Positions 8,050-60,957 of a stretch of DNA of 64,000 nt are shown here, one piece after another (position 1 is the stretch's first letter; every line of letters starts with the position of its first letter). This DNA comes from Serripes groenlandicus (Eukaryota; Mollusca; Bivalvia; Cardiida; Cardiidae), in NCBI GenBank assembly GCA_031761405.1, contig JASEVX010000003.1:114703831-114767830 (forward strand), in the 5' to 3' direction. Below the pieces are notes generated by a model. It did not search any database and was not told the origin of the DNA. It was given only the letters and a program-made list of their open reading frames with translations. Position numbers and translations under genes: made by a program.

Positions 8050-9115
8050 CTACCACTTGACCGTATACGAAGGTAAGGACTTTGAACTAGCATGTTCCAA
8101 CCCGTAAACGAAGGTAAGGCCTTTGTACTAGCACGTTCCAACCGTATACGAAGGAAAGGTCTTTGTACTAGCACGTCCCAACCCGTATACGAAGGTAAGG
8201 CCTTTTCCAATGGCTCGTCCCAACCCATTTACGAAGTTAAGGCCTTTGTACTAGCTGTTCCCATCCCGTATACTAAGCTATGGCATTTGCACTAGCACGT
8301 ACTGACCCGTAAACGAAGTTAGGGTCTTTGTACTACTAGTAGCACATTCCAACCTGTAAACGAAGGTAATGCCTTTGTACTAGCACGTCCCAATCCGTAA
8401 ATGAAGGTAAGGCCTTCGTACTAGCACGTCCCAACCCGTATACGAAGGTAATGCCTTTGCAATGGCACGTCCCAACCCGTATATGAAGGTAAGGCCTTTG
8501 TACTAACACGTCCCAACCCGTATACGAAGGTAATGCCTTAGTACAAGCACGTCCCAGCCCGTATGCGAAGGTAGGGCATTTCTACTAGCACGTCCTAACA
8601 CGTATACGAAGGTAAGGCCTTTGTACTAGCTCTTCTCAACCCGTATATGAAGGTAGTGCATTTGTACTAGCTCGTCACAACCGTATACGAAGGTAGGGAC
8701 TTTGTACTAGCTCGTCCCAACCCATATACGAAGGTAGGGTATTTCTAATAGCACGTCCCAACCTATATACGAAGATATGGCCGTTGTACTAGATCGTCCC
8801 AACCCATATGCGAAGGTAGGGTCTTTGTACTAGCACGTCCCAACCCGTATACGAGGTAATGCCTTTGTATTAGCTATTCCCAACCCGTATATGAAGATAG
8901 GGGCTTTGTTCTAGCTCGTCCCAACCGGTATAGGGAGGTAGGGCATGTGTACTAGCACGTCCCAACCCGTATACGAAGGTAAGGCCTTTGTAAAAACACG
9001 TCCCAGAACATATACGAAGGTAGGGCCTTTGTATTAGCACGTCCCAACCCGTAGACGAAAGTAAGGCATTTGTACTAGCACGTCCCATCCCGTATACGAA
9101 GGTTAGGCCTTTATC
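8050..9115. repeat. 41-bp minisatellite, about 26 copies
   Basis: Unit reads 'cgtcccaacccgtatacgaa' then 'ggtaaggcctttgtactagca'; most copies are 41 bp with scattered substitutions and small indels. ORFs on both strands through it are by-products of the repeat. It starts about 330 bp past the candidate first exon on the other strand. Confidence 0.95.
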
Positions 9116-16747: not shown

Positions 16748-17177
16748 TGAGCCGTTACACGAGAAACCCAAAATTGTGGACTCTGCGTAATGTATCGACC
16801 CAGATCAGCCTAAGCATGCCACACAGGCGTGCCCGGATAGACACTTTTCGCCTCCTGTGGATTTTCTGTTTCAGGAATTTCTACTCTATCTATCCCCCCT
16901 TAGACGGAATGTGTCGGCCGGATCAGTCTGCGCGGACAGCGCAGGCTGATCTGGTCGATACATTACGCAGATGTCTATCGCCGCAGCCTCACGAGAAAAC
17001 CAACAGTATGTCCTCTGCGTAATGTATCGACCCAGATCAGCCTTCGCAGGCTAATCCATGCCGACACAGGAGGCGTACAGTGTCTGTCCGGGTTAGCCTG
17101 CACGACATTGCTTAGGCTGATCGGGGTTAATACTTTACGCAGAGTCCACAATGTTGGTTTTCTCCTGGAATGGCTCA
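16748..17177. mobile_element. TGAGCC-type MITE, dimer-like copy
   Basis: Starts TGAGCCGTTACACGAGAAAC and ends with the inverse of TGAGCCATTCCAGGAGAAAA. A second internal start ('ctcacgagaaaaccaacag') at ~16990 shows a nested or tandem copy. Contains the palindromic 'gcgcaggctgatctgg' core. Confidence 0.85.
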
Positions 17178-33712: not shown

Positions 33713-33965
33713 GTTCCACGAGAAAAACAACATTATGGATTATTGGTAATGTATCGATCCAGATCAGTCTGCGCTGACTGTTCAGGCTAATTATGGCCGA
33801 CATATTCCGTCTCATGAGGATAGAGGTATAGAGTAATGATTCCTGAAACAGAAAATCCACACGATGTGAAAAGTGTCTGTCCAGGTTAGTCTTCGCGGCT
33901 TAGGCTGATCCGGGTCAATACTTTACGCAGAGTCCATAATGCTAGTTTTCTCGTGGAACGGCTCA
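33713..33965. mobile_element. TGAGCC-type MITE
   Basis: Left end lacks TGAGCC but begins 'gttccacgagaaaaacaaca'; right end is the inverse of TGAGCCGTTCCACGAGAAAA. Core 'gactgttcaggctaat' and 'gaggatagaggtatagagta'. Confidence 0.85.
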
Positions 33966-33969
33966 TATC

Positions 33970-35172: not shown

Positions 35173-35183
35173 ATTCTATATAT
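35173..35183 (+). promoter_or_regulatory. Possible TATA box of the deaminase gene
   Basis: A TATATATAA-type run lies about 100 bp before the preferred start codon. Other TA-rich runs at 35215-35228 and 35264-35271 could serve equally, and the whole region is AT-rich, so this is a weak call. Confidence 0.25.
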
Positions 35184-35279
35184 AAACTATTTACCGATTG
35201 AAATGATAACATTGTATATATGTATATAAGATATCAGGGTATATACATTAAGTACGCCAACGCTTATATAACAACGACA

Positions 35280-36209
35280 ATGGATACACAAGGAAACACA
35301 GAAAAACCGCTGTTGGAAATTATTAACAAGATAGGAAGGAATACATGTCGAGAGTACTTCAAAACGTTAAACGGACTGGGTGTAAAGGTAAGACATTTAC
35401 TGCTTTCCTCGCATGACTTAGAGCCTACTGAAAAAAATTGGACTGAGATAGGAATAAAAGTAAGAGTTCCTACTCATGATTGGGGAAACATATCGACAAA
35501 TAGAAAACAGTTTATAATAGCAGCTGTTGTTTCTATGGAGGAATTAGAAAACGAAAACTGTTCTCTGATCGACGACGATTTACACCAGATGTCCACCATT
35601 CCTACTTTCAAACCTAACTCAATAGTGTTCCGAAAGGGAAGAATTGTTATTGTGTTGAATGACAAGCGAAAATATACACATAATCATGGTGAGGCTATAC
35701 TGCTAGATGGAGATGAGACACCTCAACATGCTGTCAGAAACCACGTAGGATCATCTTCAGATTCAGACGAAGACTACTTATCGAACATGATAAAGAATTA
35801 TCAAGAACGATTCAATTATTTCGACAAGAGTGGTCTAGTTTTGTTATTATACTCCTATTATATCCCATGTACTGCATACCAACACCACTGTGCCGACGTC
35901 GTTAGAGAGTATGTATATCGATCAGATTCAATTAGGGTAATCGTTGCATATGACTTCGTTCATAGGGTAACAGATGAAGAGGAGGCTTTGAAAGCCATGA
36001 AAACAGACCGCTCTTGGCCAATTCTAATGGAATATGTCAATACAAGCAATGCCATGGATCTTGTGGCCAGCTGTGAGAATAGAGATGACGACATGGTTTA
36101 CCTTGCAGAAACACATCGATTGAAGAAGAGACAAGAACAACAATTCAGAAAAACCAAGAAAAAGAAAAGGCAAACCACAAGAACAAGTAAACAAAAACAC
36201 AGCCAATAA
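35280..36209 (+). CDS. Intronless zinc-dependent deaminase-fold protein, possible AID/APOBEC-like nucleic acid deaminase
   Basis: The frame is open from 35220, but the ATG at 35280 is preferred: it has A at -3 and G at +4, while the ATG at 35220 has a poor context. This gives 309 aa. Seen directly: two strand-like stretches (SIVFRKG, RIVIVLN) lead into HGE (His codon 35685-35687, Glu 35691-35693). After an acidic serine-rich insert (SSSDSDEDY) comes a hydrophobic strand (LVLLLYSYY) ending in PC-x6-C (Cys codons 35868-35870 and 35889-35891). A helix, a strand (IRVIVAYDF) and another helix (DEEEALKAM) follow. Known of the family: deaminases bind Zn through H-x-E and PC-x(2-6)-C on this fold, with Glu as proton shuttle. 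Inference: a nucleoside or polynucleotide deaminase. The first ~110 residues are unassigned; the last ~30 are Lys/Arg-rich and may bind nucleic acid or direct nuclear import. No neighbouring exon is needed. AATAAA overlaps the stop at 36205-36210. Fold fairly sure; substrate and clade unknown. Confidence 0.72.
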   Translation: MDTQGNTEKPLLEIINKIGRNTCREYFKTLNGLGVKVRHLLLSSHDLEPTEKNWTEIGIKVRVPTHDWGNISTNRKQFIIAAVVSMEELENENCSLIDDDLHQMSTIPTFKPNSIVFRKGRIVIVLNDKRKYTHNHGEAILLDGDETPQHAVRNHVGSSSDSDEDYLSNMIKNYQERFNYFDKSGLVLLLYSYYIPCTAYQHHCADVVREYVYRSDSIRVIVAYDFVHRVTDEEEALKAMKTDRSWPILMEYVNTSNAMDLVASCENRDDDMVYLAETHRLKKRQEQQFRKTKKKKRQTTRTSKQKHSQ

Positions 36210-36688: not shown

Positions 36689-36941
36689 TGAGCCGTACTC
36701 GAGAAAATCAACATTGTGTAAAGTATCGACCAGGATTAGCCTAAGCATGCCGCGTAGGGTAACCCGAATATACTCTTTTCGCTTCCTGTGGATTTTCTGT
36801 TTCAGGAATCATTACTCTATACCTCTATCCCCCTGAGACGGAATGTGTCGGCCCGGTCCAGTCTGCGCGGACTGCGCAGGCTGATCAGGGTCAATACTTT
36901 ACGCAGGGACCATAATGTTGGTTTTCTCTCGGGACGGCTCA
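36689..36941. mobile_element. TGAGCC-type MITE downstream of the deaminase
   Basis: Starts TGAGCCGTACTCGAGAAAAT and ends with the inverse of TGAGCCGTCCCGAGAGAAAA. Core 'tgcgcggactgcgcaggctg'. About 480 bp past the deaminase stop. Confidence 0.85.
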
Positions 36942-37460
36942 TTTAGAAACGGCATTTAACACAATTTTAATGTATTGCGTCTATCTATTGATTAATGAAC
37001 ATAGAATAGATTAAAGGTTTTATAAATCGATTATATTTGATATGCTGTAAGGGCACTTGTGATTTATATCTGTTATCAACCTTTAACTTTCCAGTTGTAT
37101 AAAATGCCATATTCTCAATATTGGACACGTTTTTATGGCCTGCTTTTGCAAGTTGACAATCCGTCGTCTTTCCATCCGTCTGACCAGTGAATCATTCTTT
37201 TTTACTGACATATCGTCGGCTGGGGACGCAGGTGCTTCGTCAAACACTCTTGTTCTTACATAATATGATTCGGTCAAGGGATGGAACTCAGTAAGATTTA
37301 GATAACCAACTGTAAAATAAAATCAATTTTTGAGCGACAACCTATAATATCGCACTTAAAATTTCTGAAATCAAATATAAACAATTGAAATCGTTAGTTG
37401 TATTGAATGAATAGATCAATTATATACTGATTTAAACCGGCTCTATATATTTATTTATTA

Positions 37461-52781: not shown

Positions 52782-53302
52782 TCAGTTCCGAAAGTCAGTT
52801 ACATTCCGTGGAACAAATGCTATCGAGCGATCAAACATATACCCAGGCGTGTCGTTGTAATCTAAAAGCTTAAAATCTACTTTATATACGTCTCTGAATT
52901 CATACAATATCTTTTCAGGCACTTGACGAAACATTTCTATTAAAACTTGTCGTTTTTGTTCTTTTAGAGCAGTATGGTTGGACGATGAATGGGCAATGTA
53001 AGCCAATTGTAGAAAATATCCTCTGGAAATAGTTCCCGCCGACGAGTGTGTTAGCGGTAGTCTGTGCTTCATTTCGATCAAACCTCGCAGTTGTAATTTC
53101 CGCCATATTCGCGATAACGCTTCAAACCATCCAATACATTTTGAAATATCTTTTTTCCAACTGAATGGGCTTGTGATACTATCGTCAATAGCGTCCAATG
53201 CCGCCTGTCTCGAGAGAGGTATGTGGGAGCTTTGTATTGTCTTCTCTAATCCGAATCTACGGAACATTTCGGATGAATCAGCGGCGAAGTTTTCCATTTT
53301 AC
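52782..53302 (-). CDS. Carbohydrate sulfotransferase, last coding exon
   Basis: Completes the gene whose previous exon ends at 54320. The acceptor (TTACGCAG, just above 53302) is in phase: joining the split glycine gives the family motif F-I-G-K-M-E-N, the usual IGK-x-E after the PAPS domain. The exon encodes KMENFAADSSEM and ends with the typical C-terminal pattern of a helix (LIEMFRQVPEKILYEF) and VYKVDFKLLDY, then about 20 extra residues to TGA at 52782-52784. The two exons give 379 aa, so only the anchor region is missing relative to the usual 350-420 aa. The intervening ~1 kb intron is filled with MITEs. AATAAA on the minus strand (52776-52781) abuts the stop codon, so the 3'UTR may be very short. 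Confidence 0.88.
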
Positions 53303-53383
53303 CTGCGTAATTAAAAATTAATAATAATAATATTTATGCCTACTTCCTATCAGTGAGTTTAGTCATTAGATGGTTGACATTAA

Positions 53384-53500
53384 CCCTTTCCCACTTACAA
53401 ACGCTTTCTGAAGACCTTTGCAGCAGACGACTTTTGAAAACATAGAGGCAAAAGAAGAAATGTTTTGAACTCTATTTATTAATCACATTCTCATATTTGG
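53384..53500. mobile_element. piggyBac-like MITE, left half, in sulfotransferase intron
   Basis: TTAA at 53380-53383, then CCCTTTCCCACTTACAAACG and 'cagacgacttttgaaaacat'. No right end found. Confidence 0.75.
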
Positions 53501-53645
53501 AGATCTTTCACGCTTTGTTGATACTCCTTTAAAATTATTATCGTTTTTGTAACCTTTCAATGGCCAGGCCGTACTGCTGGCACAAGGCTTCACACTATCA
53601 GATTCAGCAGTCCAAGTGTTTTTACTATTGAAATTTTACCCGTGA

Positions 53646-53833
53646 AACTTTTCCCACCTATTAACGCGTTTTAAGGCATCTGCAGCAGACAACTTTTGGG
53701 AAAAACGTGACAAAAGGAGAAATTGCTCAAAATGTTCTTTCAGTAATTATACCTACAAGTATAGAGATTTTCCATTTTTTTAGAAGACATTTTCCAAGTC
53801 GTCTGCTGCAGATTTGCTGTATGTGGAAAAGGG
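53646..53833. mobile_element. piggyBac-like MITE in sulfotransferase intron
   Basis: Left 'aacttttcccacctattaac' (decayed); right 'gctgtatgtggaaaaggg' followed by TTAA (53834-53837). Hairpin-like middle 'gacaaaaggagaaattgctc'. Confidence 0.7.
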
Positions 53834-54083
53834 TTAATTCATCAGATAGGGCATGTTAGCAGTTATTCCTGTAGTTGTCACAACATGTTTTAACCACCAT
53901 TTCCCCCATAAAACACATCCGCAGCAGACGAATTTCAAGCGGAGACATTTCACATTATGATCGATTTCATTATTTTGCTACACTGTTTACAAAAGTCGTC
54001 TGCAGCAGAGAGGGTCAAACAAATGATTGAAATGGGAACCTGCTTAATATCCCAGAGATGTAGAATGCCATCGAGGCGGTTAA

Positions 54084-54299
54084 CCCTTTCCCTCATACGA
54101 CAATTCTGCAGCAGACGACTTTGAACATATTTTGTCAAAAAAAATGGAAAATCTCTATAAGTGAATGGATAACCTATGACTAAAAGTGGAAAACATTGTG
54201 GCAAAAGGAGAAATTGCTCGTTTTCTTCTTTTGTCACTATGTTTTCCAAAATCCGCCTGCTGCAGAGGCGTCATAAAGCGTCTATATAGAGGGAAAGGG
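54084..54299. mobile_element. piggyBac-like MITE, 216 bp, 18 bp from a splice donor
   Basis: TTAA at 54080-54083 and 54300-54303; CCCTTTCCCTCATACGAC at the left and TATATAGAGGGAAAGGG at the right. Its right TTAA lies inside the sulfotransferase intron only ~15 nt from the donor GT (54318-54319). Same length as the copy at 61782-61997. Confidence 0.9.
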
Positions 54300-54319
54300 T
54301 TAATGCAGAAACATCTTAC

Positions 54320-54938
54320 CAATAAAACTGTAGTTCAAAGAGCACATGATGCACATCTCGGATTCTATCAACGTGTGTACATCCATCTTTTTCCTGTTTT
54401 TAACGGACCATGTCACAAACTGAAGAAACTCTGTGAACGTTGGATCAGAGTAGCATCTCTTACGACTGATGTTGACCCCGTTTGGTTCCCGAAAAAGGGT
54501 AATTGCGGGTTCACCGAATCTTTTCCAAAACATTGGATTCGGAGCATACACTTTGTCGATATAAGCCGAAAGCATACGATTGTATGGATCTCGTACGAAC
54601 GTGAATTTGAAATAATCCCTAGTATCATTCGGTGTTGTGGTGTTAGATAGAGAATCAATACGCTGCATTAAGGCTTCTCCAATTGAAACCTCGTACGGAT
54701 TTCGTTTTTCCGCAGTGTGACTAACTTGATAGATGAATCGTCTCCAAAAAGTAGATCCGACTTTTTCCAGTGGACAATAGATGGATCTGTGTTTAGATAT
54801 CACGTGCATCCGGCTCAACCAAAGCGATTTCCAGTTTTCGAAATTCGTATTTACGTCCCTGCAATTATCTTGCACCTTTTTGGCTAGCTGGTATCCTGAT
54901 TGCTTCGTATAAACTTGGTCGTCTTTGACCTTGATATC
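54320..54938 (-). CDS. Carbohydrate sulfotransferase, penultimate coding exon (PAPS-binding domain)
   Basis: Transfers sulfate from PAPS to sugar hydroxyls on glycans in the Golgi lumen (known for Sulfotransfer_2/CHST8-14 type enzymes). The exon encodes 206 residues plus one base. The 5'-phosphosulfate loop is CPLEKVGSTFW (KVGST at exon residues 59-63) and the 3'-phosphate motif is FVRDPYNRMLSAY (RDPYNR at 116-121). Near the end the family pattern of two close cysteines before Y-x-F-I-G-K is kept (MCIMCSLNYSFIG). Borders: acceptor TTTATTTCAG just above 54938, phase 0; donor G|GTAAGA just below 54320, phase 1. The acceptor fits because upstream codons in the same frame match intron and MITE sequence. 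The 5' exon(s) with cytoplasmic tail and membrane anchor were not found between 55 and 64 kb. No frameshift or stop in the exon. Sugar specificity cannot be read. Confidence 0.9.
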
Positions 54939-54977
54939 CTGAAATAAAATGAGCATTATAAAACCTTTCAGGCTTAA

Positions 54978-55189
54978 CTCTTTCTCATCTTCAGACACAT
55001 TAGCAGAAGAAAAGTTTTGAAAACATTGTAACAAAAGGAGAAATTGATCATGATAAACAATCTATTTTTGCCACAATGTTTCCACGCTATTCTGAAAATG
55101 TACTTTCATTTAGACAGATCTTTAGATAATATTTTGCCAATTTATTTCAACGTCGTCTGTTGCAGATTTGCTTTTTGTTGGAAAGGGGG
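54978..55189. mobile_element. piggyBac-like MITE just upstream of a splice acceptor
   Basis: TTAA at 54974-54977 and 55191-55194 (right end displaced by one base). Internal 'gaaaacattgtaacaaaagg' and 'tttttgccacaatgtttcca'. The sulfotransferase acceptor is ~36 bp away. Confidence 0.75.
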
Positions 55190-56168: not shown

Positions 56169-56432
56169 TGAGCCGTTCCATGAGAAAACCAGAATTGTGG
56201 ACTCTGCGTAAAAGTATCGACCCGGATCAGCATACGCATGCCGCACAGGCTTACCCGGATATACACTTTTCGCCTCCTGTATATTTTCTGTTCCAGAATC
56301 ATTACTCTATACCTCTATCCCCCCTGAGATGGAATGTGTAGGCCCGGATCAGTCTGCGCGGAATGCGCAGGCTGATCTGGGTCGATACATTACGCAGAGG
56401 ACATAATGTTGGTTTTCTCGCGGGACGGCTCA
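56169..56432. mobile_element. TGAGCC-type MITE with TA flanks
   Basis: Starts TGAGCCGTTCCATGAGAAAA and ends with the inverse of TGAGCCGTCCCGCGAGAAAA; TA at 56167-56168 and 56433-56434. Core 'aatgcgcaggctgatctggg'. Confidence 0.9.
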
Positions 56433-56477
56433 TATTCAATATTATACCTTAGATCCTTGGACGATAACAGGGCCTTG

Positions 56478-57271: not shown

Positions 57272-60200
57272 TCTGGATTACTGGACCAGAACTATAGGTA
57301 ACCAACTCAGATTACTGGATTACTTGAACAGAACTATAGGTAACCAACTCAGATTACTGGATTACTGGACCAGAACTACAGGTAATCAACTCAGATTACT
57401 GGACTACTGGACCAGAACTACAGGTAACCAACTCAGATTACTGGAATACTAGACCAGAACTACAGGTAATCAACTCAGATTACTGGATTACTGGACCAGA
57501 ACTACAGGTAACCAACTCAGATTACTGGATTACTGGACCAGAACTACAGGTAACCAACTCAGATTACTGGATTACTAGACCAGAACTACAGGTAATCAAC
57601 TCAGATTACTGGATTACTGGACCAGAACTATAGGTAACCAACTCATAATACTGGATTACTGGACCAGAACTACAGGTAACCAACTCAGGTTACTGGATTA
57701 CTGGACTAGAACTACAGGTAACAAACTCAGATTACTGGATTGCTGGACCAGAACTACAGGTAACCAACTCAGATTACTGTACCAGAACTACAGGTAACCA
57801 ACTCAGATTACTGGATTACTGGACCAGAACTACAGGTAACCAACTCAGATTACTGGATTACTGGACCAGAACTACAGGTAACCAACTCAGATTAATGGAT
57901 TACTGGACCAGAACTACAGCTAACCAACTCAGATTACTGGATTGCTGGACCAGAACTACAGGTAACCAACTCAGATTACTGTACCAGAACTACAGGTAAC
58001 CAACTCAGATTACTGTACCAGAACTACAGGTAACCAACTCAGATTACTGGATTGCTGGACCAGAACTACAGGTATCCAACTCAGATTACTGTACCAGAAC
58101 TACAGGTAACCAACTCAGATTACTGGATTACTGGACCAGAACTACAGGTAACCAACTCAGATTACTGGATTACTGGACCGGAACTACAGGTAACCAACTC
58201 AGATTACTGGATTACTGGACCAGAACTACAGGTAACCAACTCAGATTACTGGATTACTGGACCAAAACTACAGGTAACCAACTCAGATTAATGGATTACT
58301 GGACCAGAACTACAGCTAACCAACTCAGATTACTGGATTACTGGACCAGAACTACAGGTAACCAACTCAGATTACTGGACCGAAGGTAACCAACTCAGAT
58401 TACTGGCTTACTGGACCAGAACTACAGGTAACCAACTCAGGTTACTGGATTACTGGACTAGAACTACAGGTAACCAACTCATACTACTGGACTACTGGAC
58501 CAGAACTGCAGGTAACCATCTCAGATTACTGGATTACTGGACCAGAACTACAGGTAACCAACTCAGATTACTGGATTACTGTACCAGAACTACAGGTAAC
58601 CAACTCAGATTACTGGATTACTGGACCAGAACTACAGGTAACCAACTCAGATTACTGCATTACTGGAACAGAACTACAGGTAACCAACTCAGATTACTGT
58701 ACCAGAACTACAGTTAACCAACTCATATTACTAGATTACTGAACCAGAATTACAGGTAACCAACTCAGATTACTGGATTACTGGACTAGAACTACAGGTA
58801 ACTAACTCAGATTACTGGATTGCTGGACCAGAACTACAGGTAACCAACTCAGATTACTGGATTACTGGACCAGAACTACAGGTAACCAACTTAGATTACT
58901 GGATTACTGGACCAGAACTACAGCTAACCAACTCAGATTACTGGGGTGCTGGACCAGAACTACAGGTAACCAACTCAGATTACTGGACCAGAACTACAGG
59001 TAACTAACTCAGATTACTAGATTATTGAACCAGAACTACAGGTAACCAACTCAGATTACTGGATTACTGGACCAGAACTACAGCTAACCAACTCAGATTA
59101 CTGGATTACTGGACCAGAACTACAGGTAACCAACTCAGATTAATGGATTACTGGACCAGAACTACAGCTAACCAACTCAGATTACTGGATTGTTGGACCA
59201 GAACTACAGGTAACCAACTCAGATTACTGTACCAGAACTACAGGTAACCAACTCAGATTACTGTACCAGAACTACAGGTAACCAACTCAGATTACTGGAT
59301 TGCTGGACCAGAACTACAGGTATCCAACTCAGATTACTGTACCAGAACTACAGGTAACCAACTCAGATTACTGGATTACTGGACCAGAACTACAGGTAAC
59401 CAACTCAGATTACTGGATTACTGGACCAGAACTACAGGTAACCAACTCAGATTACTGGATTACTGGACCAAAACTACAGGTAACCAACTCAGATTAATGG
59501 ATTACTGGACCAGAACTACAGCTAACCAACTCAGATTACTGGATTACTGGACCAGAACTACAGGTAACCAACTCAGATTACTGGGCTAGAACTACAGGTA
59601 ACCAACTCAGATTACTGGCTTACTGGACCAGAACTACAGGTAACCAACTCAGGTTACTGGATTACTGGACTAGAACTACAGGTAACCAACTCATACTACT
59701 GGATTACTGTACCAGAACTACAGGTAACCAACTCAGATTACTGGATTACTGGACCAGAACTACAGGTAACCAACTCAGATTACTGCATTACTGGACCAGA
59801 ACTACAGGTAACCAACTCAGATTACTGTACCAGAACTACAGTTAACCAACTCATATTACTAGATTACTAAACCAGAATTACAGGTAACCAACTCAGATTA
59901 CTGGATTACTGGACTAGAACTACAGGTAACTAACTCAGATTACTGGATTGCTGGACCAGAACTACAGGTAACCAACTCAGATTACTGGATTACTGGACCA
60001 GAACTACAGGTAACCAACTCAGATTACTGGATTACTGGACCAGAACTACAGGTAACCAACTCAGATTACTGGATTACTGGACCAGAACTACAGGTAACCA
60101 ACTTAGATTACTGGATTACTGGACCAGAACTACAGCTAACCAACTCAGATTACTTGGGTGCTGGACCAGAACTACAGGTAACCAACTCAGATTACTGGAC

Positions 60201-60957
60201 CAGAACTACAGGTAACTAACTCAGATTACTAGATTACTGAACCAGAACTACAGGTAACCAACTCAGATTACTGGATTACTGGACCAGAACTACAGCTAAC
60301 CAACTCAGATTACTGGATTACTGAAGCAGAACTACAGGTAACCAACTCAGATTACTGGATTATTGGACCAGAACTACAGGTAACCAACTCAGATTACTAG
60401 ATTACTGGACCAGAACTACAGGTAACCAACTCAGATTACTAGATTACTGAACCAGAACTACAGGTAACCAACTCAGATTACTGGATTACTGGACCAGAAC
60501 TACAGGTAACCAACTCAGATTACTGGATTACTGAAGCAGAACTACAGGTAACCAACTCAGATTACTAGATTACTGGACCAGAACTACAGGTAACCAACTC
60601 AGATTACTGGATTACTGGACCAGAACTACAGGTAACCAACTCAGATTACTGGACCAGAACTACAGGTAACCAACTCAGATTACTGGACCAGAACTACAGG
60701 TAACCAACTCAGATTACTGGATTACTTGACCAGAACTACAGGTAACCAACTCAGATTACTGGATTACTGGACCAGAATTACAGGTAACCATCTCAGAATA
60801 ATGGACCAGAACTACAGGTCACCAACTCAGATTACTGGATTACTGGACCAGAACTACAGGTAACCAACTCAGATTACTGGATTACTGGACCAGAACTACA
60901 GGTAACTAACTCAGATTACTGGATTACTGGACCAGAAGTACAGGTAACCAACTCAGA
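57272..60957. repeat. 42/34-bp minisatellite, ~3.7 kb, with higher-order period
   Basis: Main unit 42 bp: 'gattactggattactggacc' + 'agaactacaggtaaccaact' + 'ca'. A 34-bp variant lacks one 8-bp 'gattactg' step. About 90 units. Unit order repeats with a ~1248-bp period (e.g. 58052 and 59300). The 42-bp unit is 14 codons, so frames stay open, but short runs and frame-breaking 34-bp units argue against coding. Confidence 0.97.

Follow-up and report, generated by a model that had tools for sequence, protein, structure and literature searches.

An intact open reading frame (ORF) in the 64,000-nucleotide stretch of DNA analysed here (the window) very probably codes for a zinc-dependent deaminase within the AID/APOBEC-like (SNAD/NAD-related) assemblage, and would belong to a divergent clade that has expanded in this bivalve. 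The deaminase reading, advanced in an earlier note on the same DNA, gains support from the matches of related proteins to the SNAD1 and NAD1 families, from catalytic positions that are conserved across a wider family and from an in-register match to an AID/APOBEC profile. The gene itself is real and under purifying selection, with dN/dS values of 0.27-0.42 against three further copies. In vertebrates, enzymes of the AID/APOBEC-like group drive the diversification of antibodies and restrict viruses; their origins among invertebrates have been thinly sampled.

A Single-Exon Gene and Its Close Copies

The ORF lies where the earlier note had placed it, its frame is intact, and shuffles, stop counts, phase statistics and conserved copies all speak for its coding nature. 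Counted from an ATG at 35220 it comprises 329 aa, more than any other ORF in the window; the maxima in Markov shuffles of orders 1, 2 and 5 (n = 60 each) were 186, 198 and 242 aa, and none was as long as the ORF at 35280-36209. This frame is free of stops, of which the remaining two forward frames have 25 and 20, and its codon-phase statistics are coding-like (RNY 0.28 versus 0.21, with a codon score equalled by 0.75% of random segments). Because the ATG at 35280 is common to all four close copies, and that at 35220 to the window copy and L006 only, position 35280 is the likelier start, and residues are numbered from it below. The description of the gene as intronless is true of the coding frame, and introns could still occur in the untranslated regions. 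Coordinates of the main features are collected in Table 1.

Table 1. Features of the candidate deaminase gene in the window.
Feature	Position	Strand	Evidence
Single-exon coding frame, AID/APOBEC-like deaminase candidate, 309 aa	35280..36209	+	Intact copies (n = 4, including the window copy), pairwise dN/dS 0.27-0.56
TATA-like box (putative), TTCTATATATAAAC	35177..35184	+	Identical string upstream of the L007 and L008 copies
Predicted beta1-beta2 hairpin ahead of the HxE motif, residues 115-124	35622..35651	+	Low-confidence models only
H136-G-E138, predicted zinc ligand and proton-shuttling Glu	35685..35693	+	HGE in 4/4 close copies and 12/13 aligned members (LGE in the remaining one)
Acidic/Ser-rich 18-residue insert, directly after HGEAILL	35706..35759	+	Without counterpart in the two C1263 copies
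P196-C197-x6-C204, predicted zinc-binding Cys pair	35865..35891	+	Both Cys invariant in 13/13 aligned members
Region aligned to beta4-alpha3-beta5 of AID/APOBEC3G, residues 217-253	35928..36038	+	Several alignments, each weak alone
Basic C-terminal tail, residues 278-309, varying among copies	36111..36206	+	Copy alignment, K/R count
AATAAA, possible poly(A) signal, overlapping the stop codon	36205..36210	+	Sequence

A search of the 1.76-Gb assembly, in which the window corresponds to C963:114703831-114767830, revealed three further intact copies elsewhere. One of them (L006) lies about 80 kb upstream of the window copy on the same strand, with 93% identity, and the other two (L007 and L008, the latter and L009 being one gene counted once) are found on C1263, with identities to the window copy of 78% and 67-70%, respectively. 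The dN/dS against the window copy was 0.27-0.30 for L006, 0.30-0.32 for L007 and 0.37-0.42 for L008, and reached 0.55-0.56 between L007 and L008, which indicates a weaker constraint. The HGE, PC and C204 residues are identical in all four copies, with variable residues adjoining them. Between the window and C1263 copies, similarity extends from about 290-305 bp ahead of the ATG to about 60 bp beyond the stop codon, and the window copy and L006 have 2.5 kb in common at 94.9%. Such an extension of similarity into the flanks fits a duplication of DNA rather than the copying of an mRNA; an origin as a retrogene or mobile element was considered and rejected.

Other sequences in the window give a view of the gene surroundings. 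A dispersed and partly palindromic repeat of about 220 bp, which we take to be MITE-like, occurs in both orientations (33719-33968, 36715-36942, 16784-16970 and 56211-56433), with one copy flanking the gene on each side. These repeats were considered as the ends of a single element around the gene, an idea that we rejected because they recur elsewhere in the window. There are also two tandem repeats, one of 41 bp at 8061-9112 (about 26 copies) and another of 42 bp at 57273-60957 (about 91 copies, with open frames in several phases). On the minus strand, positions 52785-55061 hold exons of a Sulfotransfer_2 (carbohydrate sulfotransferase) gene, whose three named relatives among the 11 found come from Mactra antiquata (47%), Dreissena polymorpha (49%) and Aplysia. 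The first two suggest a bivalve genome, and the three together bear out the "mollusc-like" label of the earlier note.

The Predicted Active-Site Motif

The earlier note had read an HGE followed by a PC-x6-C at H156, E158, C217 and C224 from 35220, and both elements are present at those residues, which become H136, E138, C197 and C204 from 35280. A histidine inside the Cys pair, H202, likewise shows no variation among the four close copies. The distance from HGE to PC is x57 in proteins carrying the 18-residue insert and x39 in the C1263 copies devoid of it. In this regard, the window protein shows neither the canonical PCx2-4C spacing of the cysteines nor the longer H[AVS]E-x(24-36)-PCxxC motif (PMC5956068): it reads HGE-x57-PC-x6-C, and the copies without the insert read HGE-x39-PC-x6-C. 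Given this departure from the canonical motif, the gene is not assigned to AID/APOBEC proper, to SNAD1 or to NAD1. A relaxed HxE..PCx1-7C motif arises in 0.17% of shuffles of the window protein, so that the motif alone is a lead and not a proof. The HGE and the six-residue spacing had been called unusual, a label that needs qualifying: all four close copies retain both, HGE is typical of the wider family described below, and the spacing there is 8-9. Judging from the aligned sequences, the family as a rule has HGE together with a Cys spacing of 6-9.

The basic C-terminal tail pointed out before is real, with 14 K/R within the last 40 residues. A signal peptide, expected for SNAD1 proteins, was not detected in the window copy by a test of hydropathy alone (top 12-residue hydropathy 0.09). 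The lack of a signal peptide together with the basic tail suits an intracellular nucleic-acid enzyme, and the best reading of these traits is that the window gene represents an intracellular, basic-tailed branch of the family.

Structural models contributed little. Two runs of AlphaFold2 without an alignment gave pLDDT values of 33.8 and 33.5 for the window protein, which are uninformative, and both low-confidence models followed the order strand-strand-helix-strand-helix-strand-helix. The strand/helix setting of a deaminase fold claimed for this ORF is thus reproduced in part, and in these low-confidence models only: PC sits at a strand-helix junction and HGE follows a hairpin, but the helix starts about 25 residues past HGE and the fifth strand is not predicted.

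A Wider Family in the Same Genome

When L008 was used as a genome query, two long open frames, L015 (E 0.9) and L021 (E 6.6), matched weakly and at HGE..PC only. Other places at E 1.2-8.9 in that search (L016-L020, L022 and L023, among which L020 and L022 were inspected) were rejected as members of the family. The use of L021 as the query gave 14 places, or 13 once L028 and L030 were merged (L015 and L021 reappear among them as L027 and L024), which sit on C1 (150.5 Mb and 234-236 Mb), C1407 (29.8 Mb) and C1263. They include broken or altered members: L025, L028/L030 and L037 have stops, L031 has ILC and a split frame, and L035 and L036 carry LGE, so some family members (those with LGE or ILC) look inactive from their motifs. 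The candidate inactive L035 (C1:234238674) and L036 (C1:236117492) are near-identical, with LGE for HGE in both and about 1.9 Mb between them. The decaying copy L031 (C1407:29838052), with ILC for IPC and its split frame, lies about 30 kb from the intact L029.

Nine wider members and the four close copies were aligned, with L028/L030, L031, L035 and L037 omitted. The GE of HGE, YSxxIPC and CA are invariant in the 13 aligned members, and the H is found in 12. In the alignment the spacing reads HGE-x32-39-PC-x6/8/9-C, the two insert-bearing copies having x57; the nine wider members taken separately have HGE (LGE in one) and a Cys spacing of 8-9. The predicted catalytic residues are therefore conserved at two levels, HGE and PC..C in 4/4 close copies, and E, PC and C in 13/13 and H in 12/13 aligned members, four of the 13 wider places being outside the alignment. 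Three wider members (L021, L026 and L029) show signal-peptide-like N-termini, with 12-residue hydropathies of 2.98, 2.35 and 2.23 as judged by hydropathy only.

A profile made solely of the nine wider members recovers all the close copies, scoring 18.5 bits for the window core (E = 6.5e-8), 19.7 for L006, 27.9 for L008 and 32.9 for L007, and its top score on 466 other real frames was 5.5. Shuffles of the window protein and of L007 never reached the real score (0/2000 in each of three nulls). Under the strictest null, which keeps the motif and the hydrophobic pattern, the top shuffles attained 17.7 for the window protein and 24.0 for L007, so that the margin for the window copy is narrow. This profile supports, independently, a tie of the window group to the wider family.

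Links to Known Deaminase Families

Profile searches, which the earlier note had proposed as a check, returned SNAD1 and NAD1 for relatives of the window protein and nothing for the window copy alone. The full-length L008 matches Pfam SNAD1 (PF18744) with E = 3.6e-5 and 24.2 bits (cut-off 25), and its best fragment (60-178) reaches 25.7 bits (E = 1.2e-5). Two fragments of L007 score 20.1 and 21.0 bits, one of them with E = 3.4e-4. The fragments were cut once the first L008 match was known, and 6/9 copy fragments match SNAD1, four of L008 and two of L007. No SNAD1 match was obtained with the window and L006 fragments, with a 54-residue piece of L008, with a 215-residue piece of L007 or with the full-length L007 and L006. 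The ends of the matches, rather than a residue alignment, place the PC of L007 and L008 at profile positions 124-125. One L008 fragment also matches XOO_2897-deam (E = 0.17). A whole-genome scan with PF18744 gave no matches at E<=1, a weak negative given that one candidate was scored and L008 itself was missed.

In the wider family, L033 matches Pfam NAD1 (PF18778) with E = 0.0013 and 19.3 bits, below the cut-off of 27, over residues 71-194 of the fragment, and this was the one deaminase-family match among the ten core fragments scanned. The window copy matched no Pfam family at E<=10, as was also the case for the full-length L021 and L015. Significance against family profiles was consequently reached through the relatives (SNAD1 3.6e-5, NAD1 0.0013 and hhalign 4.7e-4) and not by the window copy alone. 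The latter value comes from a single hhalign comparison of the 13-member profile with six AID/APOBEC sequences (probability 32%, E = 4.7e-4), in which H, E, PC and the second Cys each align with their counterparts; with the nine wider members alone, E was 1.2e-3 and 1.4e-3. When columns were shuffled with the motif fixed, 0/150 equalled the 13-member score for either APOBEC profile. Free column shuffles formally equalled the observed value against the six-sequence profile in 5/350 cases, owing to odd scores of 130-135 in 1/150 and 4/200 shuffles. The latter four span 5-28 columns and are followed by a fifth-highest score of 18.5, and these odd scores are taken as a program artefact. Among single deaminases, the family profile scored CDA1 at 30.2, APOBEC3G (A3G) domain 2 at 27.2, A3G domain 1 at 26.4, AID at 20.4, A3A at 19.8, rat APOBEC1 at 13.7 and TadA at 11.8, so that four of the seven exceed the best of 80 E. 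coli decoys (20.2), AID barely, and three do not.

Direct comparisons of the window copy or its close copies with AID/APOBEC were less telling. Pairwise local alignments of the window protein gave p values of 0.02-0.06 for A3G domain 1, 0.13-0.25 for AID and at least 0.37 for A3G domain 2 and TadA. Run without filters, a three-sequence AID/APOBEC3G profile scored the window core at 9.1 bits, a value reached by 1/4000 free shuffles, 2/4000 with the motif kept and 21/4000 with the motif and hydrophobic pattern kept. With a six-sequence profile the core fell to 4.3 bits, which 16, 31 and 270 of 4000 shuffles reached (free, motif and strictest, respectively). When 261 E. coli and 206 window frames were scored with the three-sequence profile, the window ORF came first (core 9.1, uncut 7.6), ahead of the E. 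coli TadA (5.1), recognised by its position in L001, and of the next frame (3.4). With the six-sequence profile, TadA led the same frames (9.2), followed by the cut core (4.3), and the uncut ORF (3.1; whole frame 2.9) scored the same as two short window frames (3.1). Among 49 single-sequence profiles run on the core (7 deaminases and 42 E. coli controls), the top four were A3G domain 1, A3A, AID and rat APOBEC1, with A3G domain 2 tenth and CDA1 and TadA outside the best 14 of 49. On the three-sequence profile, the other copies L006, L007 and L008 scored 7.3, 6.1 and 1.9, respectively, and a four-copy profile gave hhalign E values of 0.047 and 0.092 against AID/APOBEC. By these comparisons, the window group by itself appears weakly tied to AID/APOBEC.

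Library searches with the window copy gave nothing significant in Pfam, NCBIfam, PHROGs, PADLOC, PDB, viral contigs, genome contigs, or phages and plasmids, nor among 5.8 billion proteins, a search in which relatives must share exact 5-residue words. Rows at E 0.09-7 in the PDB, NCBIfam, PHROGs and phage/plasmid searches were discarded as chance. No family query found a deaminase in PDB, where the lowest E (0.19) belonged to an unrelated protein, and family profiles and members had no significant match in the viral, genome or phage collections. The protein database does contain mollusc proteins, as the Mactra, Dreissena and Aplysia relatives of the neighbouring sulfotransferase attest, so the lack of a match for the ORF there does carry information, within the 5-residue-word limit.

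Proposed Mechanism and Alternative Explanations

The family is conserved and under selection, and has the full complement of ligand and catalytic residues of a zinc deaminase in the expected order. In a plausible mechanism, H136, C197 and C204 would hold a Zn2+ ion, with a possible contribution of H202, and E138 would activate water and protonate the base, so that cytosines of single-stranded DNA or RNA would become uracils. At the rim of the site would lie the longer Cys loop and the 18-residue insert. Members of the window branch, which lack a signal peptide and bear a basic tail, may act inside the cell on nucleic acid, whereas the relatives with signal peptides may be secreted. A likely role for such enzymes would be defence against viral or parasite nucleic acid. 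Defence genes often show clustered local expansion and decayed members.

Lost or changed catalysis has precedents within the deaminase fold, as exemplified by APOBEC2 and APOBEC4. A zinc-stabilised protein with a nucleic-acid-binding or regulatory role would agree with the longer Cys spacing, the additional insert near the site and the weaker constraint between L007 and L008, and the LGE of L036 and ILC of L031 indicate that decay does occur in the family. We nevertheless regard this explanation as unlikely: the four close copies keep HGE, PC and C unchanged in spite of varying neighbouring residues, and the Glu kept in 13/13 members would not be required by a purely structural zinc site. Slightly less probable still is an enzyme acting on nucleosides, nucleotides or adenine instead of on cytosine in nucleic acids. 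The sequence does not reveal the substrate, and the motif is common to TadA-type and AID-type enzymes, but the profile matches obtained are to SNAD1, NAD1 and AID/APOBEC, TadA does not surpass the decoys on the family profile (11.8 versus 20.2), and the basic tail argues in the same direction.

An unrelated orphan protein with a chance combination of HGE and PC..C would account for the absence of significant matches of the window copy in the public libraries searched and for the relaxed motif in 0.17% of shuffles. Such an origin is, however, very improbable, since the nine-member profile scores the window gene well in excess of the decoys and higher than every shuffle, two separate members match two deaminase Pfam families, and the alignment with the AID/APOBEC profile is in register. 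We propose tentatively, and with somewhat less than even confidence, that these genes make up an undescribed bivalve clade of AID/APOBEC-like deaminases with the signature HGE plus YSxxIPC-x6-9-C-A, expanded in clusters and divided into secreted and intracellular branches. If so, molluscs would possess a local battery of enzymes that mutate nucleic acids, comparable to the expanded APOBEC3 set of mammals. A conserved and locally expanded clade with relaxed Cys spacing, whose window copy goes unseen by Pfam, suggests that the deaminase repertoires of molluscs are undercounted; a role in mollusc immunity would become directly testable, and such unusual enzymes could be of use for base editing.

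Comparison with Known Deaminases

Animal AID/APOBEC-like deaminases and the SNAD/NAD clades are already known, according to the passages available from two sources (PMC8201067, PMC11004436), and mollusc members have been noted before. Passages of a third source mention divergent predicted factors in Crassostrea gigas (PMC5956068), and three APOBEC3-like proteins are reported for Aplysia in a portion of another (PMC9334734). No title among the papers listed names a SNAD-like family of bivalves, and the best ten of 131 papers comprise SNAD papers on fish, a review and unrelated work, which is not proof of absence. What is new, as read from our alignment, is the signature HGE / YSxxIPC-x6-9-C. 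The sea-urchin and brachiopod AID-like genes are likewise invertebrate members of the AID/APOBEC-like group, discussed in an immune setting in the passages at hand (PMC5956068); those of sea urchin keep, in the same passages, the H[AVS]E-x24-36-PCxxC motif and a pfam08210 domain (PMC5956068), a domain unmatched by the bivalve family members scanned.

SNAD1 is the best profile match of two copies (L007 and L008), over a stretch that includes HGE and ends at PC, and the secreted SNADs are paralleled by the signal-peptide-like N-termini of L021, L026 and L029. The window copy differs in having neither a signal peptide nor a direct match, and the family shows PC-x6-C and x8-9 where fish SNAD1 has CVxxC, at least in the portion of the source describing it (PMC11004436). 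For NAD1 (Novel AID APOBEC clade 1), L033 matches below the cut-off and 9/10 core fragments are unmatched. The window protein departs from AID/APOBEC proper (AID, APOBEC3G and lamprey CDA1) by its HGE, wider spacing and additional insert, and by a weak or absent significance as a single protein. The family nonetheless shares with them the order of H-x-E, PC and C and an alignment through beta4-alpha3-beta5, and in AID and CDA1 the second Cys is followed by Ala, as it is in the family.
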